Origin: Mucilaginibacter sp.
GTDB taxonomy: Bacteria; Bacteroidota; Bacteroidia; Sphingobacteriales; Sphingobacteriaceae
Direction: 5' to 3'
DNA: 64,000 nucleotides
Assembly (NCBI GenBank): GCA_028288025.1
Contig: JAQBOM010000021.1
Span: 1 to 64,000 of the forward strand
The translations under genes were made by a program, and so were the position numbers. Numbering within the stretch: the first letter of the stretch is position 1; each line of letters opens with the position of its first letter. Shown here piece by piece: positions 2,711 to 61,162 of the stretch. The notes beneath the pieces are model-generated. The model saw only the letters and a list, made by a program, of their open reading frames with translations, had not been told where the DNA came from and did not search any database.

Positions 2711-4009
2711 ATGAGCATGGGTCAATACTTTATTATAGATTTCGACAGTACGTTTACACAGGTGGAGGCTTTGGATGAGCTGGCACGTATCTCGCTAAAA
2801 AATCATCCCGACAGGGAAAATATCTACAAGCAAATTGAGGACCTGACCAATGCGGCAATGGAAGGCAAACTGTCATTTACCGAAAGCCTGGAAGCGCGGG
2901 TGAAACTTTTACAGGCCAACCGCGAGCATTTAAAACAGTTGATCACCCATTTAAAGAAAAAGGTATCGGTTTCCTTTTCGCGGAATACGGAATTTTTTAA
3001 GAATCACCAGGACGAGGTATTGATCGTTTCAGGCGGGTTTAAGGATTTTATTATCCCGGTGGTAACCGAATACCAGATAAAAAAAGAAAATATTTACGCC
3101 AATACCTTTGAGTTTGATGACGAGGGCAATATCATTGGCTATGACCGGAGCAACCCGCTTTCGCAGGAGGGCGGTAAGGTTAAGTTATTAAAAGCGTTGA
3201 ACCTGCAGGGCGACATTTATGGCATTGGCGACGGCTATTCAGATTTCCAGCTGAAGGAATCGGGAATGATCAAGAAATTCTTTGCTTTTACGGAAAATAT
3301 CGAACGTAAATCAATCGCCGAAAGGGCCGACCATATTACACCGAGCTTTGATGAATTTTTGTATATCAATAAGCTGCCGAGGGCCATATCTTATCCGAAG
3401 AACCGCATTAAGTGTTTGGTAGTGGGCGAGATAGAAGAAGAGGCGCTTGCGCAGATACAAAAAGAAGGCTACAACATCCGCCAGCGTGAAACGATTGAGG
3501 ATAAGTACCTGGAAGAAGCGGGCATTGTTTTCTGCGACGAAGCGCATCAGCCTACTGTTGAGCAGGTTCAGAATGCGGGCCGGTTAAAAGTGATCGGTGT
3601 TTTTGGCAAGGTTGCCAGCCGTAAATTAGCCGAGGCCGCTTGCGAAAACGGTATCATTATTTTTGACGATCCGAAGAACAACCCACGCAACGACGATTTT
3701 ATCCCCAAACGGGTAATGGGCTTCATGAACGAAGGCAAAACACATACCAGCTGCAACTTCCCCGACTTGCAGCCGCCACGCGTAAACAATGCACACCGCT
3801 TAATTCACATCCACAAAAACGTACCGGGAATACTGGCTAAAATAAATGAGGTATTTGCCCGCCACAACATCAATATAGTCGGCGAGTTTTTGGTGACCAA
3901 TCCACAGATCGGCTATGTTATCACGGATGTGAATAAGGGTTATGATACCGAAGTCCTAAATGAGCTGAAGGCTATTGACCAGACGATTAAGTTTAGGCTG
4001 CTTTATTAG
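2711..4009 (+). CDS. Phosphoserine phosphatase fused to a SerA remnant with ACT domain
   Basis: 432 residues in two parts. Residues 1-215 are a HAD-family SerB-type phosphatase: nucleophile motif DFDST (10-14), SGG (107-109), a Lys in GGKVK (about 156) and GDGYSD (173-178). It should hydrolyse phosphoserine to serine. Residues 233-432 resemble D-3-phosphoglycerate dehydrogenase SerA at both ends. There is an early substrate-domain part (VVGEIEEEAL to GIIIFDDP) and the SerA tail NEGKTHTS...HIHKNVPG...FRLLY with its regulatory ACT domain. The NAD-binding Rossmann domain that normally lies between them is absent, with only about 20 residues joining the two parts. The tail may act as a serine sensor; this is inference. 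Start: ATG at 2711 or 2717. Confidence 0.85.
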   Translation: MSMGQYFIIDFDSTFTQVEALDELARISLKNHPDRENIYKQIEDLTNAAMEGKLSFTESLEARVKLLQANREHLKQLITHLKKKVSVSFSRNTEFFKNHQDEVLIVSGGFKDFIIPVVTEYQIKKENIYANTFEFDDEGNIIGYDRSNPLSQEGGKVKLLKALNLQGDIYGIGDGYSDFQLKESGMIKKFFAFTENIERKSIAERADHITPSFDEFLYINKLPRAISYPKNRIKCLVVGEIEEEALAQIQKEGYNIRQRETIEDKYLEEAGIVFCDEAHQPTVEQVQNAGRLKVIGVFGKVASRKLAEAACENGIIIFDDPKNNPRNDDFIPKRVMGFMNEGKTHTSCNFPDLQPPRVNNAHRLIHIHKNVPGILAKINEVFARHNINIVGEFLVTNPQIGYVITDVNKGYDTEVLNELKAIDQTIKFRLLY

Positions 4010-4122
4010 TCCATAGACCATGGTCGATAGTCCATGGAAGAATGGGTCGGTAAATTACCGAATTCGCTATGGTCTATGGTCCATCGACTATGGTCCAATC
4101 TTGGTGATCGACTATGGACTAA
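4007..4122. repeat. Inverted heptad repeat (CTATGGT/CCATAGA type) between convergent genes
   Basis: The space between two convergent genes is filled by variants of CTATGGT and its complement. The left arm is 4008-4037, the right arm 4066-4096 with a further copy at 4107-4122, and a central hairpin CGGTAA-A-TTACCG lies at 4048-4060. The left end includes the TAG stop of the plus-strand gene, and the right end includes the stop of the minus-strand gene. It could serve as a bidirectional terminator. Confidence 0.8.
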
Positions 4123-4717: not shown

Positions 4718-5786
<1,069 letters not shown>

Positions 5787-28470: not shown

Positions 28471-28554
28471 GCAATGAACCAACTGAACCAACTGAACCAA
28501 TGAACCAACTGAGCTAATGACCAATGACTAGTGACTAGTGACCAATGACCAACC
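28471..28554. repeat. GAACCAACT and GACCAAT/GACTAGT stutter repeats
   Basis: Units of GAACCAACT/GAACCAAT occur about four times, then heptads GACCAAT, GACTAGT, GACTAGT, GACCAAT, GACC, ending at the stop codon of the XRE-type gene. The heptad part is itself symmetric. Confidence 0.8.
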
Positions 28555-32941: not shown

Positions 32942-33755
32942 CAAAACCAGCTATCAATTCTTTAAGTATCAATGTCAATTTAGGCTCCGCTTCGGTGGCG
33001 ACAGCCAGTATCTCCTCAACCGAAACCGGGCTCAGCACATCGTTAAAACCTTCATCAGTAAGCACCGATATGGCAAACACAGGCAACCCCATATGGTTCG
33101 CCACAATTACTTCGGGCACCGTGCTCATCCCCACCGCGTCGCCGCCGATTATCCGCAAATAGTTATACTCAGCTTTCGTTTCCAGGTTCGGGCCGGTTAC
33201 CGCAACATAAACTCCCTTGTTGCATATAATATTGTTAGCCTTCGCTATAACCAAAGCTTTATCTATCAGCACGCGGTTATAAGGCTGACTCATATCCGGA
33301 AAACGCGGCCCCAGGTCGGTTTCATTTCTGCCGATCAGCGGATTTTGCGGCTGCAGGTTAATATGATCCTCAATCACCATCAGGCTCCCCTTTTTAAAAT
33401 CGGGGTTCAGCGCGCCGCTGGCATTCGAAACAAAAAGCGTTTTTATGCCCAGCATTTTCAATACCCTTACCGGGAAAGTGATCTGCTGCATGCTATAACC
33501 CTCGTAATAATGTAACCGGCCCTGCATGGCAACAACTTTTTTACCCGCTAGTTTGCCAAAGATTAATTTACCCGAATGAAACTCCAAAGTCGAGATCGGG
33601 AAATCAGGTATATTGGAGTACATCAGCTGTTTTTCAACTTCCACTTCCTTCACCAGGCCGCCCAAACCGGTACCCAGTATAATTCCTATCTCAGGTTCAA
33701 AATCGCCGATACGGCTTTTAATATATGCTGTTGTCCGTTCTATACTCTCTAACAT
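32934..33755 (-). CDS. Purine-nucleoside phosphorylase
   Basis: A 273-residue trimeric-type PNP, which splits inosine and guanosine with phosphate. Family motifs: GIILGTGLGGLV (phosphate loop), MQGRLHYYEGY, VSNASGALNPDFKKGSLMVIEDHINL, TGPNLETKAEYNYLRIIGGDAVGMSTVPEVIVA and the purine-site FAISVLTDEG. Cytoplasmic. It overlaps lpxK upstream (38 bases) and the porin gene downstream (8 bases), forming an lpxK-PNP-porin operon. Confidence 0.93.
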   Translation of the reverse strand: MLESIERTTAYIKSRIGDFEPEIGIILGTGLGGLVKEVEVEKQLMYSNIPDFPISTLEFHSGKLIFGKLAGKKVVAMQGRLHYYEGYSMQQITFPVRVLKMLGIKTLFVSNASGALNPDFKKGSLMVIEDHINLQPQNPLIGRNETDLGPRFPDMSQPYNRVLIDKALVIAKANNIICNKGVYVAVTGPNLETKAEYNYLRIIGGDAVGMSTVPEVIVANHMGLPVFAISVLTDEGFNDVLSPVSVEEILAVATEAEPKLTLILKELIAGFDA

Positions 33756-34875
33756 ATTCAGTAATTAATTGATCGAACAGCCGCCCACTTTCGTTTAAAA
33801 ATTCCACCCTTATAGGTATGGTATAAACGGGCAGTTCCTCAGCACCTGCCGCACCCGGTTTAAACCACGAATTATCTAAACGCTGTGCATCCTTTTCTGT
33901 TGTAACGATTATTTTTTTCGCAGATGCGCAGGCCGCAAATTCACCGGCAAGTTTAGCGATATTTTTTAAGGTAAACGGGTGGTGGTCGGGATATTTATGA
34001 TGAATGATAGTGGTAGTGCTACGGCTTAAATGCTGCACAAGCGGTTCGGCGTTAGCTATGCCAGTCAATAAAAATATGGTAGTGTCCTTATCTATCGTTA
34101 ACCCGGCTGCTTCACCATCCAAATTCTGCAATCCCTGGTAAGCTATGGACGTAAAAAACAAGTGCTGGTAAGGCAGCGGATCTATTTTACCTGCAACAAC
34201 AGCCTGCTCATCGGCGGTAAGTTGTGCCGGGCATTTGCTCACAACAATCACTTGCGCCCGCCACCTGCCACTGAAAGGCTCACGCATATTGCCTGCCGGC
34301 AGTAACAAGTGCACATCATCAATACGGTTATAATCAAACAACAAAATATTAAGCCCCGCTTCAACAGCCCTGTGCTGGTAGGCATCATCCAGCAGGATAA
34401 GGTTATGATCCGGTAAAAGGCGTTCTATCCCCTTAACCCTGTCCTCGCAAACGGCTACTGTAATATCCGGAAATTTATGTGCAAACTGTGCCGGCTCATC
34501 GCCTATTAGTTGTGAGTTGTAAGTTGAAGGTTGTAAGTCAATCCCGGTACCTGATACTTGATACCCGATTCCTGATACCGCTTCCCGGCTTTTGACTTTT
34601 GAATTTTGAATTTTGACTTCAAAAAACCCTTTGGTACTCCGCCCATAACCCCTGCTCAAAGTAGCCAGTTTATTGTGTTCTTTTAATAAACGGATAAGAT
34701 ACTCCGTCATCGGGCTTTTCCCCGCGCCGCCGACTTCAAGATTGCCAACTGAAATAACAGGAATTTTAAACCGGCGACTTTTAAACACCCCCGCATCATA
34801 ACACCAGTTGCGGATAATAACCACCAGCCCGTAAAGCAACGAAAAGGGAAATAAAAGCCAGCGCAGGTATTTCAT
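33718..34875 (-). CDS. lpxK: Tetraacyldisaccharide 4'-kinase carrying a repeat-derived insert
   Basis: A 385-residue lipid A kinase. An N-terminal membrane-associating segment (LRWLLFPFSLLYGLVVIIRN) is followed by the P-loop VGNLEVGGAGKSP (43-55), LSRGYGRSTKGF (73-84) and IGDEPAQFAHKFP. It phosphorylates the 4' position of the lipid A precursor at the inner membrane. Between GRSTKGFF and IGDEPAQ sit about 38 extra residues (86-123) encoded by heptad repeats, kept in frame. The segment falls where related LpxK proteins have a loop, so activity may be preserved. ATG 34875 is preferred over a longer frame from 34932. Confidence 0.92.
   Translation of the reverse strand: MKYLRWLLFPFSLLYGLVVIIRNWCYDAGVFKSRRFKIPVISVGNLEVGGAGKSPMTEYLIRLLKEHNKLATLSRGYGRSTKGFFEVKIQNSKVKSREAVSGIGYQVSGTGIDLQPSTYNSQLIGDEPAQFAHKFPDITVAVCEDRVKGIERLLPDHNLILLDDAYQHRAVEAGLNILLFDYNRIDDVHLLLPAGNMREPFSGRWRAQVIVVSKCPAQLTADEQAVVAGKIDPLPYQHLFFTSIAYQGLQNLDGEAAGLTIDKDTTIFLLTGIANAEPLVQHLSRSTTTIIHHKYPDHHPFTLKNIAKLAGEFAACASAKKIIVTTEKDAQRLDNSWFKPGAAGAEELPVYTIPIRVEFLNESGRLFDQLITEYVREYRTDNSIY
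34504..34617. repeat. Three heptad-repeat blocks inside lpxK
   Basis: In plus-strand order: GTTGTGA, GTTGTAA, GTTGAAG, GTTGTAA (about 34508-34537); CTGATAC, TTGATAC, CCGATTC, CTGATAC (about 34550-34579); TTTGACT, TTTGAAT, TTTGAAT, TTTGACT (about 34591-34619). All have a period of 7, each block has its own core, and all are translated as part of LpxK. Confidence 0.85.
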
Positions 34876-47769: not shown

Positions 47770-47888
47770 GAAGTTTACAGTGGGCAGTTTGCAGTCGACT
47801 ATTTAAGAGTTAACTTGATCCGCCCTTTCTGCAAACTGCAAACTGCAAACTGCAAACTGCAAACTGCAAACTGCAAACCGCAAACTCA
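47770..47888. repeat. Eight-unit GCAAACT tandem array with inverted left arm
   Basis: 47831-47886 holds eight heptads GCAAACT (one variant GCAAACC). The last unit enters the stop codon of the minus-strand gene. The left arm at about 47773-47800 reads GTTTACA, GTGGGCA, GTTTGCA, GTCGACT and is complementary to the array. The element fills most of the gap between convergent stop codons. Confidence 0.9.
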
Positions 47889-57279: not shown

Positions 57280-57326
57280 AATTTGCCATGGTCTATGGTC
57301 CATCGACTATGGGACTACAACCAACC
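57280..57326. repeat. CTATGGT heptad repeat before folC
   Basis: CCATGGT, CTATGGT, CCATCGA, CTATGGG lie at about 57287-57315, the same family as at 4007-4122. The reading frame of folC is open through it, so an annotator could wrongly start the gene inside the repeat. Confidence 0.75.
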
Positions 57327-58649
57327 ATGAACTACAAAACCACGCTCCAATACTTATACAGCCAGCTTCCACTGTTTACCCGGGTAGGCCAATCGGCATA
57401 TAAAGCGGATCTGGTTAACACGCTCGAGCTTTGCAAACGCCTGGATAACCCGCAGCATAAGTTCAGGAGTGTACATGTGGGCGGCACAAATGGTAAGGGT
57501 TCCACTTCGCATATGCTGGCGGCTATATTGCAGGTAGCCGGGTACAAGACCGGGCTTTATACCTCGCCTCATTTAAAAGATTTCAGAGAGCGTATCCGTA
57601 TCAACGGCAAAATGCTAAAAAAACAGGAAGTGGTTGATTTCGTTGCTGCGCATCAACCTGATTTCGACGAGATAAAGCCATCCTTCTTCGAGATGACGGT
57701 GGCTTTGGCGTTTGATATTTTCGCCAGAGAAAAAGTTGACATAGCAATTGTAGAGGTGGGCCTTGGCGGGAGATTAGATTCAACCAATATCATTACCCCA
57801 TTCCTCTCGGTTATTACCAATATAGGCTGGGACCACATGAATATGCTGGGCGATACCCTGCAGCTGATAGCCGCCGAAAAGGCCGGTATAATTAAACCCG
57901 GCATCCCTGTGATCATCGGCGAACATCAGCCGGAGGTGGCACAGATATTTATAGATAAAGCAAAACAAATTAATAGCCCGATAACCTTTGCGTCCGGATT
58001 GTTTGAGATCAGTGATCGGAGGTCAAGGATCGGAGATCAGAGATTAGAAAAATTACTTAATGAATTTTTAGACATCCAAATTATCCCGACTCAGGACTCA
58101 GGACTCAAGACTCTAGACTTAAAACTCGATCTCCCCGGTATCTACCAGCTTAAAAATGTAAAAACGGTACTGGCCGCTGTGGACGAGTTACGCCGACAGG
58201 GCTTCGGGATTACAGACAACCATATTAAAACTGCACTACGACAGGTTAAAACCTTAACCGGCCTGCACGGCCGCTGGGAAATAATAAATAAAGATCCGTT
58301 GACTATTTGCGATACCGGCCATAACCCCGAAGGTATAACGGAGGTATTAAAAAATATCGCGGCGATACCTTATGGGCATCTTCACTTTGTAATAGGCGTG
58401 GTAAATGATAAGGACATCAGCAAAATGCTGGCTATGCTCCCAAAGGATGCCACTTATTACTTTTGTAAGCCAAATATACCACGTGGACTTGAAGCAGAAA
58501 GCTTAAAGCAGAAAGCTGAAAGCTTTGGCTTGCATGGCGAAACATATCCTTCAGTTAAAGCAGCATTCGATACTGCGCAGCGGCGTGCCGGAAAAACCGA
58601 TTTGGTCTTTGTTGGCGGCAGTACATTTGTGGTTGCCGAGGTGGTTTAA
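57327..58649 (+). CDS. folC: Folylpolyglutamate/dihydrofolate synthase with repeat-derived inserts
   Basis: A 440-residue FolC, which adds glutamate to (dihydro)folate in the cytoplasm. The ATP loop is HVGGTNGKGSTSHML (50-64). VEVGLGGRLDSTN (143-154), GWDHMNMLGDT and the C-terminal ICDTGHNPEG are family signatures. Two stretches are repeat-derived: residues about 227-268, from AGATCAG/TGATCGG heptads and GACTCAG/GACTCAA heptads, and about 388-402, from AGCAGAA/AGCTGAA heptads. All keep the frame. It lies downstream of the TonB-like gene, an arrangement common in the phylum as far as I recall. Confidence 0.93.
   Translation: MNYKTTLQYLYSQLPLFTRVGQSAYKADLVNTLELCKRLDNPQHKFRSVHVGGTNGKGSTSHMLAAILQVAGYKTGLYTSPHLKDFRERIRINGKMLKKQEVVDFVAAHQPDFDEIKPSFFEMTVALAFDIFAREKVDIAIVEVGLGGRLDSTNIITPFLSVITNIGWDHMNMLGDTLQLIAAEKAGIIKPGIPVIIGEHQPEVAQIFIDKAKQINSPITFASGLFEISDRRSRIGDQRLEKLLNEFLDIQIIPTQDSGLKTLDLKLDLPGIYQLKNVKTVLAAVDELRRQGFGITDNHIKTALRQVKTLTGLHGRWEIINKDPLTICDTGHNPEGITEVLKNIAAIPYGHLHFVIGVVNDKDISKMLAMLPKDATYYFCKPNIPRGLEAESLKQKAESFGLHGETYPSVKAAFDTAQRRAGKTDLVFVGGSTFVVAEVV
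58008..58128. repeat. Two heptad-repeat blocks inside folC
   Basis: Block one (58008-58047): AGATCAG, TGATCGG, AGGTCAA, GGATCGG, AGATCAG, AGATTA. Block two (58089-58128): GACTCAG, GACTCAG, GACTCAA, GACTCTA, GACTTA. Both are translated within the linker region of FolC. Block two shares its core with the intergenic repeat at 6898-7000. Confidence 0.85.
58491..58530. repeat. AGCAGAA/AGCTGAA heptad block inside folC
   Basis: AGCAGAA, AGCTTAA, AGCAGAA, AGCTGAA, AGCTTTG in frame, giving the peptide EAESLKQKAESFG near the C-terminal domain of FolC. The period is exactly 7. Confidence 0.8.
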
Positions 58650-60053: not shown

Positions 60054-61043
60054 ATGACCTACCAACCCTCAGCCGACAGATATAAAAATATGCAATACCG
60101 CCGCTGCGGCAAAAGCGGCATCAAGCTCCCGGCAGTTTCGCTGGGCTTATGGCATAACTTCGGGCACGTCGACGTGACCGAAAATTATCGTAAGATTTTA
60201 CACCTGGCTTTTGACAGCGGCATTACCCATTTTGACCTGGCAAATAATTACGGCCCGCCGCCGGGATCGGCCGAGGAGAATTTTGGCCGCATCCTGAAAG
60301 AGGATTTTCGCGGTTACCGTGATGAGATGATCATCTCCAGCAAAGCCGGTTATACAATGTGGGATGGCCCTTACGGTGATTGGGGTTCAAAAAAATATTT
60401 GGTATCCAGTTTAGACCAGAGCTTAACAAGGATGGGGCTCGATTACGTGGATATATTTTATCACCACCGCCCCGATCCCGAAACACCTTTAGAGGAAACC
60501 ATGGGTGCGCTCGACCTGATCGTTCGCCAGGGCAAGGCCTTATATGCCGGCATTTCAAATTATCCCGCAGAGGAAGCGGATAAAGCTATCGCGATATTAA
60601 AGAAACTGGGCACACCTTGCCTGATCCACCAGCCGAAATATTCGATGTTTGAGCGTTGGGTTGAGGACGGTCTGCTTGATGTGCTCGAAAAAGACGGCGT
60701 AGGCTGTATCCCGTTTTCGCCGCTGGCGCAGGGGCTGTTGACCAATAAATACCTGCATGGCATTCCCGAAGATTCGCGGGCGGCGAAATCAACCGGTTTT
60801 TTGCAAAAAGACCAGGTTACCGATCAGCGTATCAGCCAGGTAAGAAGGTTAAACGATATAGCTATAAAGCGCGGGCAAACGCTGGCGCAAATGGCATTGG
60901 CCTGGTTATTAAAAGACCACCGGGTAACATCCGTTTTAATAGGTGCCAGCCGCCCCGAACAACTCGCCGATTCATTGAAATGTTTGGATAATATCCAATT
61001 TTCGGCAGATGAATTAACTAAAATTGAAGAAATATTAAAGTAG
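60054..61043 (+). CDS. Aldo-keto reductase, L-glyceraldehyde-3-phosphate reductase type
   Basis: 329 residues, TIM-barrel NADPH reductase of the YghZ/Kv-beta-like group. The catalytic tetrad is visible: Asp in FDLANNYG, its Tyr, Lys in SSKAGYTMWDGPYGDWGSKKYL, and His in DIFYHHRPD. The long GYTMWDGPYGDWGSKK segment is typical of L-glyceraldehyde-3-phosphate reductases. ATG 60054 (MTYQPSADRY) is chosen; a TAATTTTG -7 like element is at 60024-60031. Divergent from the sigma factor gene. Confidence 0.88.
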   Translation: MTYQPSADRYKNMQYRRCGKSGIKLPAVSLGLWHNFGHVDVTENYRKILHLAFDSGITHFDLANNYGPPPGSAEENFGRILKEDFRGYRDEMIISSKAGYTMWDGPYGDWGSKKYLVSSLDQSLTRMGLDYVDIFYHHRPDPETPLEETMGALDLIVRQGKALYAGISNYPAEEADKAIAILKKLGTPCLIHQPKYSMFERWVEDGLLDVLEKDGVGCIPFSPLAQGLLTNKYLHGIPEDSRAAKSTGFLQKDQVTDQRISQVRRLNDIAIKRGQTLAQMALAWLLKDHRVTSVLIGASRPEQLADSLKCLDNIQFSADELTKIEEILK

Positions 61044-61162
61044 AGGCAGAGGAAAGAAGCAAGACATAAAGATGCAAGAGGCAAGAAAAAAATAAAGACA
61101 AGCTGCTTCTTTTCTTGCTTCTTGATATCTTGCTTCCTGGCTCTTGACTCTTGATTCTAAAA
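61042..61162. repeat. Inverted GAAGCAA/CTTGCTT heptad repeat
   Basis: From the stop codon of the aldo-keto reductase gene the left arm reads GAAGCAA, GACATAA, AGATGCAA, GAGGCAA. The right arm (about 61109-61160) reads CTTGCTT, CTTGATA, TCTTGCTT, CCTGGCT, CTTGACT, CTTGATTC. The arms are complementary and fill the gap between two plus-strand genes. Confidence 0.85.

Follow-up and report, generated by a model that had tools for sequence, protein, structure and literature searches.

The window (the whole 64,000-nt stretch of Mucilaginibacter DNA that was analysed) carries an lpxK gene on its minus strand whose single open frame contains three blocks of seven-base repeats (heptads), flanked by a GYGRSTKGF motif on one side and by GDEPAQ on the other (Table 1). 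Among named matches to the window, the closest is a Mucilaginibacter MAG, at 82% in its best segment, and most of the 55 named loci bear that genus name. The lpxK product belongs to the LpxK family. In particular, PF02606 matches it with an E value of 6.8e-70 and 236.2 bits (cut-off 27), in two stretches of which the better one begins at residue 104, within the repeat-bearing loop, and the TIGR00682 profile scores 117 bits against 91.95. Its predicted structure aligns with Aquifex LpxK (4ehy) with a Z of 30.4 and an rmsd of 2.7 over 301 residues. In this model, the insert is a low-confidence loop upon an intact LpxK fold, with a pLDDT of about 48-55 across residues 91-120 and mostly high confidence in the surrounding enzyme. 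A single residue, Gly125, separates the end of the loop from D126/E127. Across 37 sequences, neither this pair nor the P-loop residues G52 and K53 vary; the four residues were placed by alignment to 4ehx. In Aquifex LpxK, D99 makes a hydrogen bond to His261, the catalytic histidine, and kcat is reduced when D99 or E100 is mutated (PMC6286764). Since the insert is modelled with low confidence and the enzyme around it with high confidence, we infer an active LpxK that probably works with a flexible loop adjoining its active site.

Table 1. Positions within the window of lpxK, folC and the heptad arrays.
Feature	Position	Strand	Basis or remark
lpxK, tetraacyldisaccharide 4'-kinase	33718..34875	minus	385 codons from ATG; open reading frame
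GDE of the GDEPAQ motif	34495..34503	minus	directly 3' of the loop; D126/E127 align with Aquifex D99/E100 (4ehx alignment)
Expanded 40-aa LpxK loop, residues 85-124	34504..34623	minus	12 aa in 103/140 genus genomes
LpxK heptad block 1, coding strand AAGTCAAAATTCAAA..., unit AAAAGTC, purine-rich	34589..34619	minus	not in sister genome G108
LpxK heptad block 2, coding strand GGTATCAGGAATCGGGTATCAAGTATCAGGTA	34548..34579	minus	array scan
LpxK heptad block 3, coding strand TTACAACCTTCAACTTACAACTCACAACT	34508..34538 (34508-34533 in second scan)	minus	homologous block in G108
Array pair between genes, inverted order	4009..4095		
Heptad array, CCATAGT x 5	5675..5709		at/after the 3' end of ORF 4718-5680
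Intergenic heptad array, AATGACC/AGTGACT	28516..28552		array scan
Intergenic heptad array, CTGCAAA x 8	47829..47886		array scan
folC, second gene in the window with in-frame heptads	57288..58649	plus	TIGR01499, E 2.4e-111
folC heptad block, GAGATCA type	58005..58048	plus	array scan
folC heptad block, GACTCAA/GACTCAG type	58088..58127	plus	array scan
folC heptad block, AAGCTGA type	58492..58524	plus	array scan
Intergenic array pair, AGAGGCA type then TTCTTGA type (purine-rich then pyrimidine-rich), inverted order	61042..61158		array scan

Self-matching of the 120-nt LpxK loop reaches 0.64, 0.58 and 0.49 at lags of 7, 14 and 21 nt, respectively, and stays at 0.18-0.36 over the remaining lags from 2 to 20. 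The lag-7 local score of 20 is reached neither by any of 500 dinucleotide shuffles nor by any of 1000 sequences that encode this peptide with synonymous codons; the loop is thus a heptanucleotide direct-repeat array, with 7-base tandem units beyond chance. A preliminary description of this DNA had placed three period-7 blocks inside lpxK without a stop or frameshift, and both the open minus-strand frame and the shuffles confirm it. It had also credited the blocks with about 38 added residues, a figure that holds as the length of the repeat-bearing stretch but overstates the net gain, which is about 28 residues (40 aa vs 12 aa).

The loop was then read across relatives, with one genome per species. 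From 149 genomes of the genus, 140 remained after the omission of five without a match, of G038, G012 and G043, and of G069, which starts inside the loop. The loop is 12 residues long in 103 of these genomes, 11 in one, 13-16 in seven and 19-47 in 29, and it is 12 residues long in all 11 outgroup loci (Pedobacter, Pararcticibacter and others). Outside the genus, the matches listed for 201 family genomes mostly comprise two stretches in open frames of about 350-390 codons, which would fit short loops. In all 140 lpxK genes, the reading frame stays open through the loop and continues for 247-261 residues beyond it; where in-frame stops had been flagged (G037, G077, G147 and G041), they proved to be the gene's ordinary C-terminal stop. 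Further, an assembly artefact was ruled out, as heptad loops also occur in the one-contig genomes G027 (6.3 Mb) and G037 (6.0 Mb) and in many separate assemblies.

All 36 loops with at least 13 residues were tested, and in 17 of them the period-7 score exceeds that of each of 500 shuffles; among the 29 loops with at least 19 residues, there are 12 where it does not. Arrays scoring at least 9 are concentrated in the loop: across the 140 lpxK open frames, 27 lie within it (17 genomes) and five weak ones (score 9) lie elsewhere. A period of 6 is found in the loops of G068, G067 and G084, where it resembles the ordinary Thr-Ala loop. Nine-base repeats are clear in G117 (L040; GTTCCAGGC; GVPGVP peptide) and weaker in G102 (L043, p 0.03) and G018 (L046, p 0.02), and the nine-base loops of G117 and G102 have an inverted copy of TGGAAC.

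As the preliminary description had anticipated, an alignment of LpxK from relatives shows that both the length of the loop and its heptad content vary between species. The nearest relative, G108, has a core identity of 87.5% and a loop of 63 nt vs the window's 120 nt, in which block 1 is missing and block 3 is kept. Between G016 and G095, the loops differ by a single 21-nt gap, and between G104 and G127 by 42 nt (aligned as 6 + 36); these lengths equal three and six heptads, which are the two shortest whole-heptad steps that preserve the frame. In contrast, the 57-nt difference between G000 and G108 falls into pieces of 53, 1 and 3 nt, and the 45-nt difference between G077 and G147 into pieces of 41, 2, 1 and 1 nt, neither being made of whole heptads. 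Whole-heptad steps are therefore not the sole path, and the earlier proposal that only certain lengths are tolerated agrees with the two close pairs, although the gaps of the others are mixed.

Heptad arrays are also found well beyond lpxK. A scan of 140 loci (2.62 Mb), which are syntenic and hence non-independent, returned 121 arrays of period 7, alongside 0, 6, 34, 18, 0, 1 and 8 arrays of periods 5, 6, 8, 9, 10, 11 and 12, respectively. The 121 arrays comprise 50 distinct units, and 67 of them lie inside open frames, where 'coding' follows our own crude and approximate frame calls. The density of heptad arrays is 12 in 218 kb for the genus (lpxK included) vs 0 in 55 kb for the outgroup, whose sample is too small. 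Between genes, there are 0.41 arrays per kb in convergent, 0.56 in tandem and 0.29 in divergent intervals; across these 140 loci, there is no clear enrichment by gene orientation of the kind that a terminator role would suggest. A search of the window against Rfam returned no RNA family at the gathering score.

Several other proteins are affected. The folC gene of the window has three heptad blocks in frame (Table 1), and in G011 and G110 the gene contains heptads as well, but different ones and at two positions, with G109 similar by eye. The leucyl-tRNA synthetase of G147 also has heptads in frame, as the sole copy flagged by the scan among five seen. In that gene (L052:16183-18123, minus strand), the heptad-coded insert stands directly before STMPGWAGSS, where G046 and G115 have other inserts. 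Moreover, heptads encode the signal-peptide-like N-terminus of a putative secreted protein, which has no NCBIfam match, in 59 of its 113 copies and in 53 of 101 genomes, and no other period between 4 and 12 scored in more than one copy. The gene for this protein (L043:6220-7542), where CACCTTT is read as the hydrophobic HLSPFTF, lies about 5-9 kb from lpxK in many loci of the genus. The suggestion that the repeats can invade an essential gene thus holds for LpxK and extends to FolC and one leucyl-tRNA synthetase, with essentiality taken from E. coli.

The blocks in lpxK had also been classed with the intergenic repeats, which is supported for most of them. Of 10 distinct units from LpxK loops, six are also present in arrays outside lpxK. 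In the genome that the window comes from, the 18-base patterns of two of the three LpxK block types exceed their reversed controls, with 31 matches vs 12 for GTTGTAA and 17 vs 4 for TTTTGAC; these counts include the copies within the window itself as well as matches that overlap within a single array. The unit of the middle LpxK block does not follow, with 9 matches vs 15 for a reversed control that resembles the CCATAGT family.

Neighbouring arrays are frequently complementary to each other in noncoding DNA. Such hairpins account for 20 of 35 noncoding pairs and 0 of 21 coding pairs (Fisher p 5.5e-6), excluding the pairs that are neither clearly coding nor noncoding, three of seven of which are hairpins. 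Five hand-picked noncoding heptad stretches have fold z scores of -5.4 to -9.4. By eye, both arms of a hairpin bear the same variants, which suggests that the arms are copied from each other; coding pairs may lack complementarity because a mirrored arm would often bring a stop. Hairpins with shared arm variants are located outside genes or at their edge at L064:258-352, L207:4640-4712, L201:16378-16453, L152:1535-1609 and L134:11680-11745. Outside lpxK, paired blocks run from purine to pyrimidine in 24 cases vs 7 for the reverse at the loosest cut, and in 18 vs 1 under a strong skew, counts that mix coding and noncoding pairs. The inserts of LpxK and FolC likewise often have a purine-rich block followed by a pyrimidine-rich block.

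The hairpins, their shared variants and the order of the blocks could all be expected if the LpxK insert were a mobile palindromic heptad element that had inserted in frame, akin to the Rickettsia palindromic elements, and the loop of the sister genome G108 does fold somewhat better than shuffles (z of -2.74). However, the window's own insert folds no better than its shuffles (z of -1.19), none of the coding pairs is complementary, and the units vary by species, as the many distinct units among the 121 arrays attest. A mobile element of this type is distinctly unlikely to be the origin of the insert.

Within the heptad loops, codon usage departs sharply from that of the host genes. In 17 such loops (627 codons), AGA accounts for 82% of the Arg codons vs 13% in the rest of those genes; likewise, CAC accounts for 90% of the His codons vs 31% elsewhere in the same genes, GTC for 38% of the Val codons vs 7%, and CTC for 18% of the Leu codons vs 3%. 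Deviations from the unit consensus are spread over codon positions 1, 2 and 3 in numbers of 39, 34 and 41 (p 0.68), and they comprise 69 transitions and 45 transversions. Further, in each of nine heptad genes tried (of 17), none of 1000 synonymous recodings reaches the period-7 score of the natural sequence. The preliminary description had named a conserved insert with normal codons as the case that would speak against it; we found instead that the insert is absent from 11/11 outgroup loops and 103/140 genus loops, that its content is species-specific, and that its codons are abnormal. An old conserved loop is thereby ruled out, and the LpxK insert is, as judged from these sequences, repeat DNA.

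The same loop could alternatively be viewed as a rapidly changing part of the protein on which diversifying selection acts, exerted for instance by phage or envelope pressure, with the heptads being incidental. It is variable across the genus and close to the active site, and its expanded forms include loops with a period of 9 or 6 and long loops without a significant period. Yet selection on the peptide is hard to reconcile with within-unit changes that fall evenly over codon positions, with codon use that tracks the heptad and not the host, or with the failure of synonymous recodings to reproduce the period in the nine genes tried; we consider this explanation highly unlikely.

The arithmetic of the repeat imposes its own constraints. 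Because seven and three are coprime, translating a single-unit array yields one cycle of seven residues whichever frame of a given strand is used, and the array's freedom from stops is consequently set by the unit and the strand alone, whatever the phase of insertion. Among 27 arrays of LpxK loops, the consensus unit contains a stop on the coding strand in 2/27 and on the opposite strand in 24/27. A few coding readings recur in distant species (ESRVKSQ-like from GAGTCAA and TTHHSPL-like from ACCACTC), and the stop filter can explain this sharing. Seven-base units shift the reading frame, as in known phase-variable genes. Nevertheless, a contingency switch, in which heptad slippage toggles lpxK on and off, is scarcely conceivable here, since the arrays are short and degenerate, the loops of 140/140 genomes stay open and lead in frame into the C-terminal domain, and in E. 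coli the pathway has no absolutely required step after LpxK, which itself is required (PMC6286764).

A tree built from LpxK minus its loop and the neighbouring purine nucleoside phosphorylase places the significant heptads in two clades (supports of 0.993 and 0.994), which are separated by nodes of 0.88-0.90 on a weak backbone. The heptad-bearing G027 groups with G136 and G120, whose loops have 12 residues (support of 0.999), and G062 and G072, which have heptads, group with the 12-residue G130 (support of 0.942). Fitch parsimony counts eight changes vs a mean of 16.3 in 500 shuffles. With a gain weighted at five times a loss, heptads are already present at the root in the most economical history, and the number of gains is therefore uncertain; taken alone, the tree may be compatible with few gains and many losses. 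The 12-residue relatives have the Thr-Ala loop that is common in the genus, and G072 retains an old-style TATATAT tail behind its heptads, which argues for insertion over loss and rebuilding.

Overall, we think it very likely that the heptad arrays change by tandem copying and that tolerant protein sites keep those that pass filters of frame, stop and folding. Mucilaginibacter genomes contain numerous degenerate heptanucleotide arrays, and according to this explanation these would arise and change through tandem copying, for which we infer slippage or hairpin-templated copying as the process. An array would come to lie in a protein's surface loop that tolerates indels, either by arising there or by being copied in, and it would be retained if the total change in length is a multiple of three and if its heptad is stop-free on the coding strand; together with folding, these filters would leave arrays only at tolerant protein sites. 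The LpxK loop before the catalytic Asp-Glu pair would be one such site, colonised and remodelled repeatedly, and FolC, one leucyl-tRNA synthetase and a signal peptide would provide others. The comparison of genomes suggests that noncoding-type repeat DNA has repeatedly been turned into protein sequence where it is tolerated. A far-reaching extension, in which the heptads are a frame-blind peptide generator, with a genus-wide, hairpin-propagated pool that seeds loops, signal peptides and essential enzymes, appears unlikely; if true, it would make heptads a standing source of novel protein sequence and not an occasional accident.

The tandem-copying explanation would make the LpxK loop a natural experiment across many species, in which a noncoding-type repeat becomes protein at a fixed and structurally known site of an enzyme that is essential in E. 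coli, and in which rates, filters (frame, stop and fold) and cost are directly measurable. Annotators are also warned that what looks like a variable 'insertion' in a gene of this type can be repeat DNA. The occurrence of arrays as hairpins points to an unexplained copying process in Mucilaginibacter.

Both heptad arrays and in-frame elements are already known from other systems, and it is their recurrent form in a catalytic loop that is without a report among the literature matches listed. Those matches, in which subscription journals are thinly covered, include no paper that treats heptads, either for Mucilaginibacter or for LpxK. The G-rich heptamers of Xanthomonas and Nostoc, of the quadruplex-forming GGGAATC type, are described in PMC4692102 as under-represented in coding regions, and they share with the present arrays an over-representation between genes. 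Borg tandem repeats are fast-evolving, lie partly in open frames and are often disordered, and their units in open frames are divisible by three (PMC9879509), unlike the seven-base unit of Mucilaginibacter. The Rickettsia palindromic elements are about 150 bp long and palindromic, with a family-conserved peptide (review PMC10969869, which cites Ogata 2000 and 2002). They place repeat DNA in frame in unrelated metabolic genes, where it is translated into the product, and heptads likewise lie in frame in the unrelated LpxK, FolC and leucyl-tRNA synthetase genes; in contrast, the Mucilaginibacter heptad arrays are non-palindromic in the coding copies examined and are not conserved. The nearest parallel in unit length is provided by the TAACTGA direct repeats of Beggiatoaceae, Cyanobacteria and some Bacteroidetes, which, according to MacGregor 2015 (PMC4679880), are mostly intergenic, include 11 ORFs with 'reverse' repeats, and, in genes of assigned function, mostly occur at protein ends, with an RNA polymerase beta prime-like ORF as the exception. 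The same source earlier described a strand effect of stop codons and a reading into heptapeptides, and these features, as well as the seven-base tandem arrays, are common to both systems. The TAACTGA family accounts for 0/121 arrays, and the 2.62 Mb contain no perfect TAACTGA dimer. Unlike the TAACTGA repeats, those of Mucilaginibacter have 50 units, a strong degeneracy and hairpin pairs, and their inserts recur within a housekeeping enzyme, at a single internal position next to its active site.
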